Of a stretch of DNA of 24,203 nucleotides, positions 11,409-23,686 are shown one piece after another (the first letter of the stretch is position 1; each line of letters begins with the position of its first letter). The notes below the pieces were generated by a model. It was not told the DNA's origin and searched no databases. It worked only from the letters and a program-made list of their open reading frames with translations. The position numbers and the translations under genes were made by a program. Source of the stretch: a virus; the IMG/VR virus record IMGVR_UViG_3300005436_000125, positions 1-24,203 of that record; one strand, written 5' to 3'.

Positions 11409-11944
11409 CGGTTGCGCTCGCGCTCGAGGCGCTCCTGTTCCATCCAGTGTCCACGCGTCACGGCGCGGCTGCGCTCGAACGCGGCACACGCATCGACGAG
11501 GATCGCGGGCGGGTCAGCGCCCATCGCGGCCATGCCGAGGCCGCGCTCGCAGAGCGTCATCACGTCCATGACCTCGACGACGATCGGCTCGTAGAACGAG
11601 CGCCACGGGCACGTCATGGGCTTGATGCGCGTGATCGATTCGACAGCGCCAAGCCACTTGTCGGCCGTGGCCTTGGCCGCGAGCAGCTGCGACGGTAGCA
11701 GCGGGGGATCGTATCGATCCGATTCGCCATCGCAGTCGCAACGATAGGCGCGCCGGATGTCTCGGAGCCGATCGGGATCGGAAGCGAGCGTGCCGCGTGC
11801 GGCCTGTTGCTCAGGGCTCAGCTCGAGCTGCTGTCCTGCTGCGTCTCGGCATTCTTTCGACGCACCGCAGACTGGTAGCGGACTGTGTCTAAGGCGGCCG
11901 CTGAGGTAGCCAGCAGCTGACAGCGCGGCTTTACTCCTCGGGCT
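11405..11944 (-). CDS. Tail assembly chaperone -1 frameshift extension (T part of GT)
   Basis: This frame encodes 179 residues, read by a -1 slip from the chaperone gene. Joining 12363..11944 to 11944..11405 gives a 319-residue GT-type fusion with no frame conflict. The conserved-looking part is residues about 60-165 of the extension, including the CDCDGESDRYDP segment, a long helix, and TCPWRSFYEPIVVEVMD. There is no ATG, GTG or TTG in this frame between the slip site and that block, so independent initiation near the proper place is not available. In lambda and many long-tailed phages the G and GT proteins coat the tape measure during tail assembly and are absent from virions. The gene lies right before tape measure, as expected. 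The open frame also extends upstream of the slip site, but that part is an Arg-rich shadow of the G gene. Confidence 0.75.
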   Translation of the reverse strand, partial: SPRSKAALSAAGYLSGRLRHSPLPVCGASKECRDAAGQQLELSPEQQAARGTLASDPDRLRDIRRAYRCDCDGESDRYDPPLLPSQLLAAKATADKWLGAVESITRIKPMTCPWRSFYEPIVVEVMDVMTLCERGLGMAAMGADPPAILVDACAAFERSRAVTRGHWMEQERLERERNR

Positions 11945-12363
11945 AAAAAACTCTGCGCCCAGATCACGCTTCCCACCTCCAGCACGTCGACCTCGTCGAA
12001 CTGCTCGAGGGTCTTGTCGTCGATGGCGCCAGCATCCTTGTTGCGACGTGGAGTGAGCGTCGCAACCGTGTTGCCGTTCTCGTCGACGTAGTTCTTCACG
12101 GCAACGATGCCGTACGCGAAGCATCGCCGTAGGCGTTCGATCTCGTGCGCTGTCTCGGTGACCTGGCGACGCTGCGCAAGCGTCAGTCGGCGACATACCC
12201 ACGTGGACGGCACAGCGATCGACGGGTCGACGAGCAGCAGATCCTTTGGATCACGCCACTGCACATATTCCATGCACGCCTTGAGGCCATCGTCCTCTGG
12301 CCAGTCGCACGCCGGATCGTACGCACGCACGATCTCGAAGGTGCCAACGCTGCTCTGCTGCAT
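11818..12363 (-). CDS. Tail assembly chaperone (G-like)
   Basis: A 181-residue protein, starting at ATG 12363, with alternating charged and helical segments: LRRCFAYGIVAVKNYVDENG in the middle and LEQFDEVDVLEVGSVIWAQS near residue 130. This layout, together with its place between the tail tube and tape measure genes, matches the G-type tail assembly chaperones, although no sequence family was confirmed. About 42 residues before its own stop the frame contains the slippery heptamer T TTT TTA at 11950-11944. A fraction of ribosomes should slip there and make the longer GT product. The unshifted C-terminus is Ser/Gln-rich and ends in four serines. It follows the gpG-like gene by 3 bases. Confidence 0.7.
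   Translation of the reverse strand: MQQSSVGTFEIVRAYDPACDWPEDDGLKACMEYVQWRDPKDLLLVDPSIAVPSTWVCRRLTLAQRRQVTETAHEIERLRRCFAYGIVAVKNYVDENGNTVATLTPRRNKDAGAIDDKTLEQFDEVDVLEVGSVIWAQSFLARGVKPRCQLLATSAAALDTVRYQSAVRRKNAETQQDSSSS
11944..11950 (-). promoter_or_regulatory. Programmed -1 frameshift site (T TTT TTA)
   Basis: Zero-frame codons are AGT TTT TTA, giving the perfect X XXY YYZ heptamer T TTT TTA, the same as the well-known retroviral U UUU UUA. A slip by -1 moves into the extension frame exactly. A Shine-Dalgarno-like GGAGGTG lies 23 bases upstream (11974-11980). Downstream, 14 bases after the heptamer, GCCGC (11929-11925) can pair with GCGGC (11901-11897). The spacing is longer than usual, so the structural element is less certain than the heptamer. 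Confidence 0.75.
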
Positions 12364-15115: not shown

Positions 15116-15871
15116 TCAGCGCTTGTTGTCGTCGCGGCGATCGAGCTTCTTGAGGATCGCGTCCAGCTTCGCCTCGAGCTCAGCGTTCTTGGCGCGCAGG
15201 GCCACGAGCTCGGCATTGCTGCCACCGCTCACGACTTGCTGCATGGCCTCGGCGATCACCTTGGCCTGGTGGTCCGCGGCTAGCCGCGTGCGGTTCTCGG
15301 TGGTGGGCGGCGCGGCGTGTAGGAAGTCCTGCGGGCGCCGATCGAACTCGCCCATGTCGCACGCCACGCCATCGCGATCGACGACGCGGCAGAAGAGCAG
15401 CGGGGGCAGCCCGTGCCGGTGCTCGGGGAAGACCTCGTGCAACAAGGTCCACTCGTTGACCGGGCACTTCCAGTGCATGTGCTGCTCGAGCGCATCGGCG
15501 AAGCCCTGCGTGCTCGGCTCGTTGCGCAGCTTGGCCTGACGCGACGGGCTGATCTCGTCGTCGAGCCAGCGCTGGCGCACGCTTGGCGCCATCTCTTTCG
15601 CGAGCCGCAGCGCCTCGTGGTCCTTCGGGCCGCGCACGCGCGCGAGCACCGCGTTGAGCCGGTCGGCGTAGACCTCGATGCGCACCGTCTTGTGCACGCG
15701 TTGACCGTCGACCACGGCCGGCGCGGGGAGGTAGTGACCCTCGATGCCCGTGCCGTTCATGGAGTCGGTGGCCACCTCGAGCACCAGGCGCTGCACGTCG
15801 CGCGGCGGATCGATGTCCTTGCCGGGCGTACCGTCCACCTTGATCGGAAGCAACGGAGCTTGCTCAGTCAT
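15116..15871 (-). CDS. Unknown protein with C-terminal coiled coil, next to major capsid gene
   Basis: A 251-residue protein. The N-terminus is MTEQAPLLPIKVDGTPGKD, followed by a mixed region rich in Arg, Asp and His (residues about 60-200), with CPVNEWTLLHEVFPEHRHG and a CRVVDRDGVACDMGEFD segment that looks like a small independent domain. The last 45 residues (SNAELVALRAKNAELEAKLD and onward) form a clear short coiled coil ending in a basic tail. No family is recognised. The start ATG at 15871 overlaps the stop of the major capsid gene (TGATGA), so expression follows capsid. Head accessory or neck protein roles are possible. The upstream extension of the frame to 16072 is shadow sequence inside the capsid gene. 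Confidence 0.65.
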   Translation of the reverse strand: MTEQAPLLPIKVDGTPGKDIDPPRDVQRLVLEVATDSMNGTGIEGHYLPAPAVVDGQRVHKTVRIEVYADRLNAVLARVRGPKDHEALRLAKEMAPSVRQRWLDDEISPSRQAKLRNEPSTQGFADALEQHMHWKCPVNEWTLLHEVFPEHRHGLPPLLFCRVVDRDGVACDMGEFDRRPQDFLHAAPPTTENRTRLAADHQAKVIAEAMQQVVSGGSNAELVALRAKNAELEAKLDAILKKLDRRDDNKR

Positions 15872-16872
15872 CAGCCCACCCGACCGTAGAGGCCGTAGGG
15901 CGACAGGCCGAACGCGCGACCGTCGAACTGCAGGCCGTACTTGAACATGTCGGTCTCGGCCGGCGTGTCCTGGTTCGGCTGATCGATCACGGTCGTGGTG
16001 ACCGACGGGCCGCCACCCGAGCTCGGCGAGGTCAGCTCGTTGTCGGTCGCCTGGCCACCGCCCTGCAGCCACCCCATGAAGGGGAAGCGCGAGTCGGCGA
16101 GGAACCAGCTCGCGGTGTTGGTGCCGTCCTCGAAGCGCGCCGACACGATGACGGTCAGCTTGCCCTTGTAGACGTTGGTGATCGGCGTCGCGGCCTGCAC
16201 GCTGCCGGTCGCGTCGAGTGTGCCGTCGGTCTTGATCGCGACGGGACGGTTGTCGGCCTGCGCGATCTCGAGTGCGGTCCGTTCGTTCGAGACGCCCACG
16301 ATCAGCAGATCGGGGTTGATGCCGAGGAACTCACCTTGCTCGTCCTTGAGCGCGCGCATCGCGGCGATGCCCGTGTTGACTGCCGAGAAGCTCAGCGCGG
16401 ACGTGACCTTGTTGTCCCAGGTGCCTCCCGTGAGGTTGGCGTTGGGATGCGTGTCGTTGAGGAGCGAGACGCCGTCGATCCCGGTCGGATTCGAAAGCAG
16501 CGACTCGAATACCAGCTTGTCGGGCGCGTAGGCGACGTCGCCCAGCATCTGGCTGATCTTGCGGCTGAAGATGCCGGTCTTGTCGTAGACCACGTCCTTG
16601 CGCGGCAGCTCGAAGCCCGCCGTGTACGTCTTCAGACGCACGTAGCGCTTCTGGACGCGGAAGCCGCCCCATACGCGCGACCCGGTCCACTCCGCGATCA
16701 CGGGGACAGCGGTGCCCTCGTCGATCTCGAGACCGATGCCGTCGCCGCTATTGAAGACGGCGGTGAACTTGGACCACACGCCGGGCGGGCGCTCGTTGAA
16801 TACCGACTGCGCCAGCGTCTGATACGTGGTGCGCGCCGCTTCGATGTTGGCGATACCTGCGGGGGAAGCCAT
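15871..16872 (-). CDS. Major capsid protein, Mu gpT-like
   Basis: A 333-residue protein resembling the Mu gpT major head subunit family (HK97 fold). Supporting segments include GFELPRKDVVYDKTGIFSRK at about residues 86-105, DKLVFESLLSN, a loop GVSLLNDTHPN, and NPDLLIVGVSNERTALEIAQ near residues 185-204. The C-terminus ends with the typical compact AFGLSPYGLYGRVG stretch. Length is close to the usual for the family. The ATG at 16872 is preceded by AAGGAAACCAAC, a strong signal fitting the most abundant virion protein. Residues 3-17 (SPAGIANIEAARTTY) closely match residues 174-188 of the protease-scaffold protein; see findings. It follows the decoration-type gene. Confidence 0.85.
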   Translation of the reverse strand: MASPAGIANIEAARTTYQTLAQSVFNERPPGVWSKFTAVFNSGDGIGLEIDEGTAVPVIAEWTGSRVWGGFRVQKRYVRLKTYTAGFELPRKDVVYDKTGIFSRKISQMLGDVAYAPDKLVFESLLSNPTGIDGVSLLNDTHPNANLTGGTWDNKVTSALSFSAVNTGIAAMRALKDEQGEFLGINPDLLIVGVSNERTALEIAQADNRPVAIKTDGTLDATGSVQAATPITNVYKGKLTVIVSARFEDGTNTASWFLADSRFPFMGWLQGGGQATDNELTSPSSGGGPSVTTTVIDQPNQDTPAETDMFKYGLQFDGRAFGLSPYGLYGRVG

Positions 16873-17955: not shown

Positions 17956-19050
17956 TCAGGCGGTCGTGGCGCCGTTGGGCTTGCCCGCGTTGGCGCGCTG
18001 CGAGAGCGCGGCGCGAATGGTCGCGTCCTGCTTCTCGCGCGGCATGCGCACCTCGCTGAGGTTGCGGCGCATCGCCTTGACGAAGGGATCCTTCTCGTTG
18101 ATCGGCACGTCGCTGGCGGCGTTGTCTCCGGGCGGCGTCACGCTCAGCGCATGCGGCGCGAGCGGTACGACCTGCGGCAGCGCAGCGGCGAGCGCGTCGA
18201 AACGCTTGCGATCGCTGAGCGCGAGCGAGAGCAGCTCTGGCTTCGCGGCATCGAGCGCGCGGCCCTCGGCGATCACGCGGTCCACCGCGGCCGTGGCGTC
18301 CGCCTCATCGATCTTCGCGACGCGCGCGCGCAAGGTCTCGTTCTCCGCCTTCAGCGCGACATGCGCCTTCTCGTGCGCGCTGAGCGTCAGCTTGAGCGCG
18401 GTGACCGCGTCGTCGCTGAGCGTCGAGGGCACCTGCGCCTGCGACGCTGCGCCGCCCGAGAAGGCCGCCTTGATGGCGTCAGCGTTCTGTTGCAGTGCCG
18501 CGAGCAGCGCGCCCGCATCGAGCCCCGTCAGCGTCATCAGCTGCTGACAGACGAGCGCGTTCGGATCGCTGGCCTCGGGGGCCATGGCCGCCGGCTGCGA
18601 GTTGGGCGGAGGTGTCGCCGTCGCGTCGAGCGTGACCGCGCCGGCCGGCTTGTCCGAGAGCTTGCCAGCCTTCTGCATGGCGTACGCTTCCGCGGCCGCC
18701 TGCTTCGGGTCCTTGCCCTCCTTGACGAGCTTCGCGATCTTGTCGCTCACCGCGGGGTCTTCCGCGAAGGCCTTCTTCTGCTCGTCGCTCAGCGCGGCGT
18801 AGTCGTCGCCCATGGGCGCGGCGCCGGCAGGCGGCATGGGAGGCGGCGGATCGGCCATTGCCTCCGCGTCGTCAGCGTCGGGCTCGTCGTCGTCACTGTC
18901 GATCGACAGGTCTTCGCCGCGCTCGGCCGCGATGCCCTTCAGCACAGCGTCTAGCTGCTCGTCGGTGAACTCGTCGCCTTGCAACCGCTTCATCGCCTCG
19001 AGCACGTCGGCCTTGGCGATCTTCATGGTGGGGGCGGGGGCAGCGGACAT
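17956..19050 (-). CDS. Scaffold protein from internal in-frame start (gpZ/Nu3-like)
   Basis: Inside the protease gene, ATG 19050 (codon 204) begins MSAAPAPTMKIAKADVLEAM and would yield a 364-residue protein. The signal before it is excellent: AAGGAG at 19064-19059 with an 8-base gap, and the GCAAC sequence in front of the ATG is the same as at the decoration start. It falls exactly at the border between protease and scaffold-like parts. The product contains an acidic region (residues about 50-70 of the scaffold), Pro-rich linkers and a coiled coil, usual for scaffolds. By analogy to Mu gpZ and lambda Nu3 it fills the prohead before being cleaved. The prediction rests on start signal and domain border; no direct proof in sequence. 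Confidence 0.7.
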   Translation of the reverse strand: MSAAPAPTMKIAKADVLEAMKRLQGDEFTDEQLDAVLKGIAAERGEDLSIDSDDDEPDADDAEAMADPPPPMPPAGAAPMGDDYAALSDEQKKAFAEDPAVSDKIAKLVKEGKDPKQAAAEAYAMQKAGKLSDKPAGAVTLDATATPPPNSQPAAMAPEASDPNALVCQQLMTLTGLDAGALLAALQQNADAIKAAFSGGAASQAQVPSTLSDDAVTALKLTLSAHEKAHVALKAENETLRARVAKIDEADATAAVDRVIAEGRALDAAKPELLSLALSDRKRFDALAAALPQVVPLAPHALSVTPPGDNAASDVPINEKDPFVKAMRRNLSEVRMPREKQDATIRAALSQRANAGKPNGATTA

Positions 19051-19659
19051 GTTGCTTGCTCCTTGCGCGAGACGCTTGCGCGGCCGCGTGGTCGTGTACT
19101 GAGTGCGCGCCGCTTCGATGCCTGCTGCGCCGGCCGGTGAGCCGAGCGCGCGCGCGCTGAGCCGGATGGGCTCCTGGCCGTCCAAGAACGGGGTGTTGGT
19201 CAACGCGAGCGACGTGAAGCGACAGCCAATGTCCTTGCCGCTCGCACGATCGATTGCGCCGAACTGGAAGACGCCGCTCGAGTAGCGATAGCGCCCGTCC
19301 TTGACGAACGCGGCCGCCTCGTCAGTGAGCTCGACGAGCGCCCACAGGTGCGCGCGCCCGCTTGCGTCGTCCTTGATCGCGAGCTTCTGGACCCAGCCCG
19401 CGGCGGGCGCCTGAGCAGCCCACTCGGTCGCGTGCTCGTAGTCGAGCGGCACCGGGTTGCGCTGCGCTTCGAAGTTGGCAACGCATTGCTCGAACGTCGC
19501 ACGGTCGAAGCTGAACGGGCCCGCGGGGTGGCCTTCCCACGAGCCCTCCATCGCGACGTCAACCCACGTGAGCGGCGCGCCCTCTTTCACGAGCGGGTAC
19601 AGCGCACGCAGCGCCCACCGGTCCCCGACCTTGAAGGCGGAGACGAGGGGCGTGTGCAT
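17956..19659 (-). CDS. Mu gpI-like prohead protease fused to scaffold
   Basis: A 567-residue protein. Residues 1-170 match Mu-like prophage I protease: PVPLDYEHATEW with H76, GRYRYSSGVFQF with S127/S128, and SLALTNTPFLDG at 150-161 are the family landmarks, with H76 and one of these serines the likely catalytic residues. Residues 171-203 form a linker that contains a peptide resembling the capsid N-terminus. Residues 204-567 are scaffold-like: acidic, Ala/Pro-rich linkers, and a long coiled coil around 430-460. As in Mu I/Z and lambda C/Nu3, the full protein is the protease and a shorter product from an internal start is the scaffold. The start ATG at 19659 shares a base with the gpF stop (TAATG). 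Both parts leave or are cut during head maturation. Confidence 0.8.
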   Translation of the reverse strand: MHTPLVSAFKVGDRWALRALYPLVKEGAPLTWVDVAMEGSWEGHPAGPFSFDRATFEQCVANFEAQRNPVPLDYEHATEWAAQAPAAGWVQKLAIKDDASGRAHLWALVELTDEAAAFVKDGRYRYSSGVFQFGAIDRASGKDIGCRFTSLALTNTPFLDGQEPIRLSARALGSPAGAAGIEAARTQYTTTRPRKRLAQGASNMSAAPAPTMKIAKADVLEAMKRLQGDEFTDEQLDAVLKGIAAERGEDLSIDSDDDEPDADDAEAMADPPPPMPPAGAAPMGDDYAALSDEQKKAFAEDPAVSDKIAKLVKEGKDPKQAAAEAYAMQKAGKLSDKPAGAVTLDATATPPPNSQPAAMAPEASDPNALVCQQLMTLTGLDAGALLAALQQNADAIKAAFSGGAASQAQVPSTLSDDAVTALKLTLSAHEKAHVALKAENETLRARVAKIDEADATAAVDRVIAEGRALDAAKPELLSLALSDRKRFDALAAALPQVVPLAPHALSVTPPGDNAASDVPINEKDPFVKAMRRNLSEVRMPREKQDATIRAALSQRANAGKPNGATTA

Positions 19660-20366
19660 TACAGTTGGTCGTCGAGTCCAGTGGGTGGCGCGTCGAAGCC
19701 ATCATCAGGCTGCGCGTCATCGGGAAGGTCAGCGCTGTTGCGCACACGCGCGGGGTCGACTTGCGACTCACGCAGCGTGACCACACTGCAACGGCAGTTG
19801 AACCCACACGGCGGCGCGAACCGTCCCCAATCAGGATCGTCCTGCCGGAAGATCACACCATCGAGCGCCTGGTGTGCAGGCCGCACCCTGTTGTCACCGG
19901 CGGTGCGGTATTCGACGTATGGACGCGTCGCTGCCACCGCGCGGATCTGCCGGTAGCGCCCGGCACCGTACGCACCTTGAACGTTGGTGCGAAAGACCGT
20001 CTCGAGGTAACCGCTGTCGGCCGCTGTGATCCCGAGCGATGCCTCTTCGCCCCGCAGCGCGGTGACGAAGTCCTGCATCGTCGAGCCGCTCTCTAGCGCC
20101 TGTGCGAGCAGAGCATGCGCGCGCTGTCGCAACTGATCGCTCGCAAGCTGTGTTGCGGTGAACGCGTTTGCGCGCGCCGCGTCGCTGAGCTCGTAGAACT
20201 CATCCGGCGAGATGACGCCCTTCGAGAGGAAGAACCGGATCGCCTCGTCGAAGGGTAACCGCGTGAACGCAACCGGGATGGTGTCGTCGAGCTGGCGTTG
20301 CTGCGGTAGCGACTCGGGCACCTCGATCAGGCGCACGAAGAGCTGCCCCGCCATGTCGGCATGCAT
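19659..20366 (-). CDS. Mu gpF-like head morphogenesis protein (reading frame from first ATG)
   Basis: A 235-residue reading frame. Numbered from ATG 20366, residues 38-90 (PFDEAIRFFLSKGVISPDEF and the helix after) match the N-terminus of gpF-type proteins. Residues 119-140 (YLETVFRTNVQGAYGAGRYR) and 181-198 (CGFNCRCSVV with H165 before it) are the hallmark of the SPP1 gp7/Mu gpF family. Residues 1-18, however, look like the end of a DUF935 portal, and the same frame stays open and portal-like upstream to 20666. ATG 20366 has no Shine-Dalgarno site. The gene is therefore best read as the second part of a portal-gpF polyprotein made by a -1 shift; see 20367-20666. gpF-type proteins are minor head proteins bound at the portal. 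Confidence 0.8.
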   Translation of the reverse strand: MHADMAGQLFVRLIEVPESLPQQRQLDDTIPVAFTRLPFDEAIRFFLSKGVISPDEFYELSDAARANAFTATQLASDQLRQRAHALLAQALESGSTMQDFVTALRGEEASLGITAADSGYLETVFRTNVQGAYGAGRYRQIRAVAATRPYVEYRTAGDNRVRPAHQALDGVIFRQDDPDWGRFAPPCGFNCRCSVVTLRESQVDPARVRNSADLPDDAQPDDGFDAPPTGLDDQL

Positions 20367-20666
20367 GCGCGGCCGGTAGAGCGTGGCCGCAATCTCGGCG
20401 TCGTCCTTGGCCTTGCGGGCCCACTCGCTCAGCAGCCGATCGGCGTCGCCCGGGCTCTTCGCGCGCTCGATCAGCGCTGCAATCTGGTCGGCCCAGCGCG
20501 CCCACGCGGGCAGCGCAGCGACGAGCGCATCGCCCGTTACGTCCGGCGGCTTGCCGATCGTTTGGACCGCTTGCTGCCGCGCGGCATCGTCGGCCAGGGC
20601 AACGAAGTCCCCGTGGCCGCCCGCCCAGTCAGGATCGCCGCCTGCTCCCAGGGGAGCTGACTCGAG
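20367..20666 (-). other. Portal C-terminal domain encoded in the -1 frame (portal-gpF bridge)
   Basis: This 300-base stretch overlaps the end of the portal reading frame but is coding-like in the gpF frame. It gives 100 residues: a Gly/Pro linker (LESAPLGAGGDPDWAGGHGD), then helices WADQIAALIERAKSPGDADR and LLSEWARKAKDDAEIAATLY. This is the helical C-terminal region found at the end of DUF935 portals. The frame is open from 20714 to the gpF stop and contains no ATG, GTG or TTG before 20366. It can thus be translated only by entering from the portal frame. Joined at 20666, portal (515 codons) and this frame (335 codons) form one 850-residue protein. Either a programmed shift or an indel (natural or in the assembly) explains it. 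Confidence 0.75.
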
Positions 20667-22210
20667 AAAGGGCGCGCCGATGCGGCTGCACCTCCCGTCG
20701 CAGGCGCCGTCGGGTCAGGCGGCTTGGGCGCGCCGCCCGGCGTCGGAGCCGAGGCCATCGGCACGCCATCGAGCGTCGCGAGCTCCTCGCCCATCGCATT
20801 GCCCCAGACAGGCTGACCGCGGCTCGCGCGAAGCTCGTCCTTGGTGCACGAGCGGGCGCGCACGAGCAGCTCATCGACCTGCACCGGATCGTCGGCGAGG
20901 ATCGTATGCCCGTTCGGAACGGGCGTGCTCGGCGCGAACAGGTGCGGGTTGAGGTCGCGGATCGCAGTGAACAGGTCGCGCTCGATCGAGTGCCAGAGCT
21001 GCTGGCTGTCGATCAGCTGACGCGGCAGAATCGTTGTCGTCGCCTGCGAGTCGGCCGCGCTGTACGCGCCGCCCGTCTGGCCGATCTGCACGTTGAGCGT
21101 CGAGCCAAGGATGCGCTTGGACATCGAGTCGTCCATGCAGTCGGCGAGCTCTTTCCAGACGCGCGCGCTGGCCTCGGCCACGCCGTCGCGCCACTCGACC
21201 GTGGTGCCATTGCGCAGGATCGCAACGCCATCAGCGGCGAGCGTCTCGAGCGCGCTCTTCAAGTCGTCGACGACGTTGTCGCCGACGGCCTCTTGCGGCA
21301 CGGTGCCGACGGTGCGCGGGTTCGCGCCGTTCTCAGCGCCCTGTAGCCAATACTTGGTGACCCACTGCTTGACCCACCACTGGCGCGCGATGCTGAAGAA
21401 CAGGCCGCGTGAAGTCGGCCAGTCGTTGATCGTCATCGGCGCGTGCACGATGTACTTGCGCGGGGGCAGCAGCGCGATCGAGCGGCCGTAGCCCTGCTCG
21501 ACCGAATGCCCAGCGCGCACGAGCTCGGCGACAGCGCGCCCGCTGTCCCAGAGGCCGCAGCGGTAGTAGAGGTCAAACGCGAAGCGGCGCGGATGCACCG
21601 GCACGAGCGCGACCGGCACCACCGCCGGAATGCCCAGCAGCGTGCCGCGCCCCCAGATGATCTCGGCGTGCGCGATGTTCGTTCCGAGCCCATCAAGCAG
21701 CGCGAGTCGAACGTCAGCGAAATTGTCGATGCGATCGAGGGCCTCGCGGCACGCGTCCGTGAGCCGCACGGCATCGTCCTGCAGCGTCGGTACGTTCGTC
21801 TCACCCGGCTCGAGGTCGTAGCGTGCGGCGGCGATCGGCGCGATGCGCGTCTCCCACACGCTCGCCAGGTGCGAGTCGCTCTGCAGCATGCGGCGCGTGA
21901 GATCGACCCAGTCGACCGTCAGGCCCCACGCTGCGTCCTTCATCACCTGGATCAGGCGATCGAAAGTGATCTCCGCAAACTGGATCGCGTTATTGCCTTG
22001 CGACCACGGGATCGAAGGCTGCGGCGTGAACGTCTCGTACTGTGAGCTGCTCTGCTGCTGGCCCTTGACCTCGTTCAGGTACTCGGCCAGGCGCACCACG
22101 TCGACGACGTTGTCGCCCGAGCGCACGGCGAGCGTGCTGCCCTTGACATCCTTGGCTGCGGCCCTTTGTGCCTGTGCCTGGCGTCGGAGCTTGCGAGCGC
22201 TGCTGCTCAT
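20537..22210 (-). CDS. Portal protein, DUF935 (Mu gp29-like)
   Basis: A 557-residue reading frame. The basic N-terminus is followed by the DUF935 core: FDRLIQVMKDAAWGLTVDWV and MLQSDSHLASVWETRIAPIA near residues 84-130, PVHPRRFAFDLYYRCGLW in the middle, then SKRILGSTLNVQIGQTGGAY and the Leu-rich helix up to residue 440. The portal ring sits at the DNA-entry vertex and binds terminase. After about residue 515 the zero frame becomes Thr/Arg/Ser-rich and ends in SKRSKRSASRRT, which does not look like a portal C-terminus. The expected C-terminal helices are found in the -1 frame. The start ATG at 22210 lies 3 bases after the terminase stop. The unshifted product would be a shorter portal with a basic tail. 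Confidence 0.85.
   Translation of the reverse strand: MSSSARKLRRQAQAQRAAAKDVKGSTLAVRSGDNVVDVVRLAEYLNEVKGQQQSSSQYETFTPQPSIPWSQGNNAIQFAEITFDRLIQVMKDAAWGLTVDWVDLTRRMLQSDSHLASVWETRIAPIAAARYDLEPGETNVPTLQDDAVRLTDACREALDRIDNFADVRLALLDGLGTNIAHAEIIWGRGTLLGIPAVVPVALVPVHPRRFAFDLYYRCGLWDSGRAVAELVRAGHSVEQGYGRSIALLPPRKYIVHAPMTINDWPTSRGLFFSIARQWWVKQWVTKYWLQGAENGANPRTVGTVPQEAVGDNVVDDLKSALETLAADGVAILRNGTTVEWRDGVAEASARVWKELADCMDDSMSKRILGSTLNVQIGQTGGAYSAADSQATTTILPRQLIDSQQLWHSIERDLFTAIRDLNPHLFAPSTPVPNGHTILADDPVQVDELLVRARSCTKDELRASRGQPVWGNAMGEELATLDGVPMASAPTPGGAPKPPDPTAPATGGAAASARPFSSQLPWEQAAILTGRAATGTSLPWPTMPRGSKRSKRSASRRT
20644..20672 (-). promoter_or_regulatory. Candidate -1 frameshift signal in portal gene (C CCT TTC plus hairpin)
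   Basis: Zero-frame codons CGC CCT TTC give the X XXY YYZ heptamer C CCT TTC at 20672-20666. After an 8-base spacer, GCTCC (20657-20653) pairs with GGAGC (20648-20644) around the loop CCTG. A strong Shine-Dalgarno-like GGGAGGTG lies 16 bases upstream (20689-20696). A -1 slip here enters the portal C-terminal/gpF frame exactly. The hairpin is short (5 bp) and the heptamer is not among the most efficient known in bacteria, so this may be coincidence around an indel. Confidence 0.5.
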
Positions 22211-22213
22211 GCA

Positions 22214-23686
22214 TCAGAAGGGGCGAACGCGTGTCGGAAACGGGCGCGTGCGACCGCCGGCTGGCGCGTCGCGATCGAGCGGGAACGGGCGGGGCCGCTC
22301 CACGTGAGGTTGCGTCAGCGTCTCGAGCGAGGCCGAGCCGAGCGCATCGAAGCCAGCCGAGAGCGCGTCGACGTCGTCGTCGTGCGCGTCGCCTTGGCCG
22401 GTGAAGTCGAGGCAGCAAGCAAGCGCCGCTGCCATGTCACTGCCATCGCGTAGCGCCTCGCCCTCGGGCCAGTGCACGCCGCGCTTGTCGTCGTTCCAAG
22501 CATCGCTCGCCGGGATCGCGCGAACGTACTTGCTCTCGCGCGCCGGCAGCGCCGTGACGCGCAGGCCTTTGCGAGCGAGGTAGTCGATCGGACCCTGCTC
22601 GGTGCCGCCGATGTACGCGCGCACCGGAGCGCCCGGCCAGCGCGATCGGAACGTGATGAGCTTGTCGCCCCACGTCGGCGCGTCGCATTGCGCACGCATG
22701 ACGCCGAGCACGTAGACACGCTTCTCGGCTGACATGCCCAGCGCGATCGCGACGTTCCAGTCGCTGGTGCGCTTGTTGGTGTACGCGAAGTCAGTGCCGA
22801 TCGCGACGCGCAGGTCGCTGGGCCGCTCGGTGTAGTAGCGCACGCCGTTGAAGACGTGGCCCTCACGCGGGCGCGGCTCGCCCATGTAGATCGACCACCA
22901 GTCGCGTTCGTTCGAGCGCTTGAGCTCGAGCAGCGATAGCGGCATCTCTTCCGGCCACAGCGATTCGCCTGATGGCAAGATTGCTGGCAGGTTGATGACG
23001 CGGAAGATCTTGCTGAGCCGCGGGTCTTTCTTGATGCGCCCGATCAGGTCGTCTTCGTGCCATCGAGTGTGGACGATGATGACGCTGGTGCGCTTGCGCA
23101 GGCGCGTCCAGATCGACGAGCTGAACTCGTACCAGATGCGCTCACGCATGAGCCGGCTCTCGGCCTCGGCGCGGTTCTTGTGCGGATCGTCGACGACCAG
23201 GATCGTCAGCCCGCTTAGACCGGTAATCGCGCCGCCGAGAATGCCGCGCGCTGCGAGGCCGCCGCCCTCGGGCGTGCGCCACAGCGAGACGCTGTCGGTG
23301 TCAGCACGGAGCTCGACGCCAGCGAGGCGCGCGTAGTCGCGAATGGTGCGCGACTTGTCCTCGGCGATCGTGGCCGAGTAGCTGACGTACGCGCTGAAGA
23401 TGTCCGGGTATCGCCGCAGCGTCTGCGCGAGCCAGTGGCTGATCGTCGTCGTCTTGCCGAACTGCGCCGGCACTGAGACGCACGCGAAGATCGGTTCCGC
23501 AAGTCCGCGTGCCGCGAGCTGCGCCTGCTCGAGAACATCGACGACCGGCGTGAGATGGCGCGGGTCCGTGAGCGCGGGCGAGATGCGCTGGATGAAGCCG
23601 CCAAGCGCCTCGTCGTCGCGAGCGTGCGCCCGCGTGAACGCCTCGATAGCCGCGAGCTCGCGACCGATGCGGCGCAAGTCGCGCAT
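22214..23686 (-). CDS. terL: Terminase large subunit
   Basis: A 490-residue packaging motor and nuclease. The ATPase part shows a Walker A-like loop VPAQFGKTTT (residues 72-81), a Walker B strand LTILVVDDPHKN (160-171) with D166/D167, and the motif HTRWHEDDLIGRI (206-218) typical of Mu/T4-type terminases. The nuclease part shows VAIGTDFAY with D299 at the first acidic position and HDDDVDALS (435-443) at the last. The Pro/Arg-rich C-terminus after 455 is likely the portal-binding tail. ATP hydrolysis drives DNA into the prohead, and the nuclease cuts the concatemer or headful. Start ATG 23686 follows GTGAGGCTCC. Two departures from the usual motifs are noted: Gln-Phe in the Walker A loop and Asp where Walker B usually has Glu. 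Confidence 0.92.
   Translation of the reverse strand: MRDLRRIGRELAAIEAFTRAHARDDEALGGFIQRISPALTDPRHLTPVVDVLEQAQLAARGLAEPIFACVSVPAQFGKTTTISHWLAQTLRRYPDIFSAYVSYSATIAEDKSRTIRDYARLAGVELRADTDSVSLWRTPEGGGLAARGILGGAITGLSGLTILVVDDPHKNRAEAESRLMRERIWYEFSSSIWTRLRKRTSVIIVHTRWHEDDLIGRIKKDPRLSKIFRVINLPAILPSGESLWPEEMPLSLLELKRSNERDWWSIYMGEPRPREGHVFNGVRYYTERPSDLRVAIGTDFAYTNKRTSDWNVAIALGMSAEKRVYVLGVMRAQCDAPTWGDKLITFRSRWPGAPVRAYIGGTEQGPIDYLARKGLRVTALPARESKYVRAIPASDAWNDDKRGVHWPEGEALRDGSDMAAALACCLDFTGQGDAHDDDVDALSAGFDALGSASLETLTQPHVERPRPFPLDRDAPAGGRTRPFPTRVRPF

Follow-up and report, generated by a model that had tools for sequence, protein, structure and literature searches.

Known frameshifts in phages affect tail chaperones, major capsid proteins or tail-tube proteins. 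The tail assembly chaperone pair G/GT of lambda (Xu, Hendrix and Duda 2004, cited in PMC3483164) resembles the locus described here in that a tailed phage uses a -1 shift to make one protein in a short and a longer form, but the lambda pair directly precedes the tape measure gene, whereas the pair considered below consists of a portal and a MuF protein and carries a different signal. Frameshifting also gives rise to a minor, extended virion structural protein in T7/T3, phage A2, Listeria PSA and SPP1 (gp17.1*) (PMC5009743, PMC6316719); in these phages it is a major capsid or tube protein that is extended, in contrast to a portal extended by a MuF protein. The putative signal resembles that of dnaX-type -1 frameshifting, in which a zero-phase heptamer is likewise combined with an upstream internal Shine-Dalgarno (SD) stimulator. 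However, dnaX shifts on A AAA AAG rather than C CCT TTN, and unlike dnaX the present locus lacks a conserved downstream hairpin and would fuse additional domains to the product of a phage head gene.

The order of the domains is that of Mu gp29/gp30, with a homologous portal, its C-terminal domain and a MuF domain, except that the Mu portal includes its C-terminal domain and Mu gpF has a start of its own, in an ORF that overlaps the portal, which is not the case here. Fusobacterium phage phiFN37 and the contig L010 have the same domain order on one polypeptide and, without a frameshift, every portal subunit would carry MuF. Within the open literature, we found no published description of a portal and gpF joined by frameshifting: a full-text search restricted to open-licence articles returned no described frameshift at a portal or at a portal–MuF pair, in agreement with a first-pass annotation of this DNA that knew of none, and the portal is mentioned neither in a 2013 genome-wide survey of frame transitions (PMC3711429) nor in the part of a 2016 review that was available (PMC5009743).

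Two overlapping frames in a Mu-like head operon

The window analysed here is a complete IMG/VR virus record of 24,203 bases. The minus strand encodes a head operon of the Mu type, composed of the terminase (22214-23686), the portal, gpF, a Mu-like protease/scaffold at 17956-19659 and, at 15871-16872, a capsid protein resembling Mu gpT, with the portal and gpF pair immediately downstream of the terminase gene. Elsewhere in the window, immediately 5' of the gene presumed to encode the tape measure, a candidate chaperone ORF (12363..11818) is accompanied by a -1 frame open to 11405, and T TTT TTA (11944-11950, minus strand), the only zero-phase heptamer in that overlap, is a candidate site for a tail-chaperone frameshift.

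The zero-frame portal ORF (22210..20537, minus strand) encodes a Mu-type protein of 557 amino acids, identified by its translation and by a match of residues 103-432 to PF06074 (E 3.7e-43, 148.6 bits versus a gathering score of 23.9). The usual C-terminal helical domain is absent from this frame and lies instead, with moderate support, in the -1 frame. On the minus strand the -1 frame stays open between 20714 and 19659, and it contains the MuF domain (Phage_Mu_F, PF04233; 19782..20114, minus strand; E 2.9e-22, 80 bits versus a gathering score of 29.6). In the window, the -1 frame contains no ATG, GTG or TTG between 20714 and 20366, and no SD site occurs in the 30 nt 5' of ATG 20366. Two overlapping ORFs, the downstream one in the -1 frame and without a start of its own, meet the criterion for -1 programmed frameshifting. 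Every coordinate given in the first-pass annotation was confirmed, and the window sequence bore out the absence of both a start in the -1 frame and a ribosome binding site at ATG 20366.

The segment that links the two genes in the -1 frame, which we call the bridge (20331..20668, minus strand), has no start codon and is predicted to be reachable via a frameshift only. A profile built from 15 bridges matched the last 64 columns (453-516 of 526) of a profile made from 13 portals of the Mu type, with an E-value of 1.4e-5 and a probability of 80%. The identification of the bridge as the missing portal C-terminal domain, which rests on this profile–profile match, is moderately supported, in line with the earlier proposal that the C-terminal DUF935 helices lie in the -1 frame and are continuous with gpF. 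The bridge is conserved as a -1-frame protein in all lineages described below. Accepting this assignment, the C-terminal domain is missing from the unshifted portal, and the shifted product would possess it, fused to MuF. Slippage at the heptamer would join 515 residues of the portal to 335 residues of bridge and gpF/MuF (19659..20668, minus strand, ending in TAA), giving a computed fusion of 850 amino acids. Past the heptamer, the zero frame continues for a basic tail of 42 amino acids followed by TAA (20537..20665, minus strand), and the length of this tail varies from 13 to 57 codons among the relatives. A (P/A)WE motif is found in the tail of the window (20645-20653, minus strand) and also in L008, L009, L031 and L039, representing four lineages; the short tail with this motif may have a role of its own.

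The slippery heptamer and its surroundings

At the frame switch lies C CCT TTC (20666..20672, minus strand), an X XXY YYZ heptamer in the phase of the portal and the proposed site of the -1 shift. The motif C CCT TTN, in which N is C, T or A, occupies the switch in all contigs of the clade and thus in 17 lineages when the window is counted, and it is nearly always the sole XXXYYYZ heptamer within the overlap. All 16 lineages tested, plus L051, keep C CCT TTN in zero phase within the overlap, whereas zero-phase CCCTTT occurs only twice in the 7863 other portal codons. Codon usage at the site is also unusual: TTA accounts for just 0.2% of 651 leucine codons, yet it is the A-site codon in 4 of the 16 heptamers. 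In E. coli, C_CC.U_UU.C has been singled out as a high-level shift motif (PMC4066793).

The internal SD-like site GGGAGGTG (20689..20696, minus strand) is separated from the heptamer by a spacer of 16 nt. Its calculated duplex with the anti-SD sequence (-11.6 kcal/mol) is stronger than that of every other same-phase stretch of this portal frame. An anti-SD-pairing site is present in 16/16 tested lineages, the window included, with free energies of -6.9 to -11.6 kcal/mol and an end 8-17 nt upstream of the heptamer, and in 12 of them the rest of the gene has no same-phase stretch as strong. Combining the lineages gives a p of 1e-24 for this site, a value that assumes independence and is overstated because of their shared ancestry. 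The site falls in different codon phases, GGA GGT G in the window versus GAG GTG in L039, and is therefore kept as nucleotides. An upstream SD stimulates -1 shifting, and the 16-nt spacing in the window is longer than the 8-11 nt reported for E. coli (PMC6321510).

In bacterial -1 frameshifting an upstream SD stimulator is optional, and a downstream hairpin or pseudoknot is common, not obligatory. The hairpin GCTCC CCTG GGAGC (20644..20657, minus strand) stands 8 nt past the heptamer in the window, but it is neither conserved nor unusually stable. Folding of the 55 nt that begin 5 nt past the heptamer was not better than that of shuffled sequences (z +1.2), downstream folding across 16 lineages was average (mean z -0.2), and no hairpin shared among these lineages was seen, pseudoknots being outside the modelling. 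Given this average folding, present evidence does not make the hairpin part of the signal. Of the elements initially put forward as a signal, the heptamer (as C CCT TTN) and the upstream SD-like site are conserved, and the hairpin is not.

Relatives and the forms of the portal–gpF pair

Direct searches of IMG/VR with the portal of the window retrieved no relatives; these were found by using the -1 frame, and later alignments, as the query. The -1 frame identified L008 and L009 (47% identical), which have the same layout with C CCT TTT, and the same layout was found in L031 and L032 (C CCT TTA) and in L039 (C CCT TTT). The last scan, which used an alignment of four sequences, yielded 72 loci. 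In 58 contigs, the window included, gpF is read in the -1 frame relative to the portal, and the overlap contains C CCT TTN in zero phase. These contigs, drawn from over 40 metagenomes, fall into 16 clusters when 90% identity is required and into 13 when 70% suffices; L051, recovered by hand, adds one contig and brings the total to 17 lineages with the window and 16 without it (among the 58, a few contigs may overlap or be nearly identical because they record a single virus). Portal identity falls to about 30%, and the frame change from portal to gpF is -1 in all contigs of the clade.

The two findings that would have refuted a frameshift, a single open portal–gpF frame in relatives or a conserved independent start for gpF, were sought within the C CCT TTN clade, and neither was found there. 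The frameshift reading put forward from the window alone is thus supported by the same two-frame layout and heptamer in about 58 contigs and 16 further lineages. In comparisons of L008 with L009 and of L031 with L032, substitutions upstream of the heptamer fall at position 3 of the zero frame, while downstream of it they fall at portal position 2, which is position 3 of the -1 frame, and almost none occur within 60 nt on either side. Judged by this pattern, coding selection acts on each of the two frames as far as the switch.

No cultured phage with the frameshift layout was found among GenBank phages and plasmids, and all known members of the clade are metagenomic. Across 369 genomes from the class of MAG G001, gpF matches other than the known contig cover the MuF part only. 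Three clade-related loci (L009:4425-6275, L018 and L031:6508-8481) contain an intein-like insert that interrupts gpF directly 5' of a conserved CRC motif; its Pfam intein match is weak (E 6e-4 and 8e-4), and it is absent from the close relatives L008 and L032. In L008, the region 5' of the portal (1-2800) contains genes that resemble, by eye only, sugar-nucleotide and methyltransferase functions.

A -1 layout was also encountered with other heptamers. In L107 and L108 the heptamer is T TTT TTT and a strong SD precedes it by 12-14 nt, and in L111 and L113 it is A AAA AAA, likewise accompanied by an SD; L114 (T TTT TTT / T TTT TTG) and L112 (A AAA AAA) are weaker cases without a clear SD, and L106 was dropped as a candidate on account of its ordinary layout. 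Where the heptamer is a run of A or T, transcriptional slippage is possible too. In a tree of MuF domains, 90% of bootstrap trees unite the members with C CCT TTN, and a second, distinct group with support comprises L107, L108, L111, L113 and L114, which suggests that the putative portal–gpF frameshift has either two origins or one older origin with losses.

Other Mu-like phages are organized differently. The portals of Mu, MP29, B23, Mushu and MMP7 have their own C-terminal domain, with gpF separate and slightly overlapping or adjacent; Mx4, GBK1, Finn, Bhz63 and AFS-2018a also have separate portal and gpF genes, and in Y8A a small ORF lies between the two. Bacterial prophage loci recovered with both genes in a gpF alignment search mostly keep them separate as well. 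The two proteins are encoded by one ORF in phiFN37 and L010. With separate genes in Mu-like phages and a single ORF in these two, separate, fused and, as predicted here, frameshifted forms of the pair all exist. Single-ORF portal–MuF fusions are located at L119:1618-4140 (OR492271.1) and L010:4450-6963, the former annotated merely as 'minor head protein and DNA pilot'.

Probable frameshifting, its alternatives and the portal ring

We conclude, with a probability of about 0.92, that portal and gpF constitute a single unit of translation, linked through programmed -1 ribosomal frameshifting. The layout, the signal, its conservation and the switch of coding phase are read directly from the DNA; slippage, its rate and the co-assembly of the products are inferred only, expression, proteomic and ribosome-profiling support for a frameshift is lacking, and the non-conserved downstream structure and the longer SD spacing of the window also count against it. 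The obvious alternative is a one-base indel, natural (a pseudogene) or made by the assembly, that split a single portal–gpF ORF. Such an ORF would encode a sensible protein, and single-ORF fusions do exist in phiFN37 and L010, but an indel would not be expected to recur as a -1 break, always at this heptamer, in about 58 contigs from more than 40 metagenomes, nor coding selection on both frames up to the switch, and the homopolymers at C CCT TTN are no longer than a few bases. Since the relatives share both layout and heptamer, we regard an indel as ruled out for practical purposes.

Alternatively, gpF and the portal C-terminal domain could be made as a separate protein from an internal non-ATG or weak start, with no frameshift. 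An ATC at 20681 does lie 7 nt past GGGAGGTG in the window, and CTG, GTG or ATG codons arise from the (P/A)WE codons (TGG GAG) past the heptamer in the window, L008/L009, L031 and L039; both kinds of start were compared across lineages and rejected, as the ATC is not conserved and the NTG, missing in most lineages, is 22-37 nt from the SD and has none of its own. The SD holds its distance to the heptamer and not to any start, and a start codon would not explain why C CCT TTN, rare codons included, is invariant. The signal in the relatives argues strongly against a separate gpF start, which we consider highly improbable. It is also hard to sustain the idea that ATG 20366 alone is used, giving a MuF-only gpF and leaving the bridge untranslated: Mu, MP29 and others begin gpF at about the equivalent place, but this start has no ribosome binding site and is not conserved, the bridge is maintained as a -1-frame protein in all lineages with changes mainly at -1-frame third positions, and the portal would be left without a C-terminal domain entirely. 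We give this last reading next to no credence.

In the programmed frameshift that we favour, ribosomes translating the portal would meet the internal site GGGAGGTG, which would pair with the 3' end of 16S rRNA during the slip, and the tRNAs on CCT TTC would move back one base onto CCC TTT. Ribosomes that do not slip would complete the 557-residue portal with its short tail, and those that do would produce the 850-residue protein made of portal body, portal C-terminal domain and gpF/MuF. These two are the likely products, although nothing has been expressed. The suggestion that the fusion is the rarer of them is not supported, as sequence analysis cannot reveal which product is rarer. Short portal and fusion would most likely co-assemble into the 12-subunit portal, the frameshift rate setting the number of gpF domains that hang inside the head; by inference, the fusion perhaps sets the copy number of gpF tethered to the portal ring.

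To our knowledge, the rule behind the one to two copies of the MuF protein on the SPP1 portal is not understood. This SPP1 protein, gp7, is a portal-binding protein of which each capsid holds one or two copies (PMC5576092); a frameshift that fused MuF to a fraction of the portal subunits would, we infer, give an SPP1-like count of 1-2 directly. At even odds, portal–MuF -1 frameshifting may be a widespread means of head-assembly control in uncultured phages, with at least two origins, that sets the minority of the 12 subunits carrying a covalent gpF and C-terminal domain and thereby a ribosome-set asymmetric portal. For these phages, standard gene calling would shorten the portal and lose about 100 residues of the gpF-fused protein, and if ribosome slippage sets the MuF count, the SPP1-type copy-number question becomes testable.
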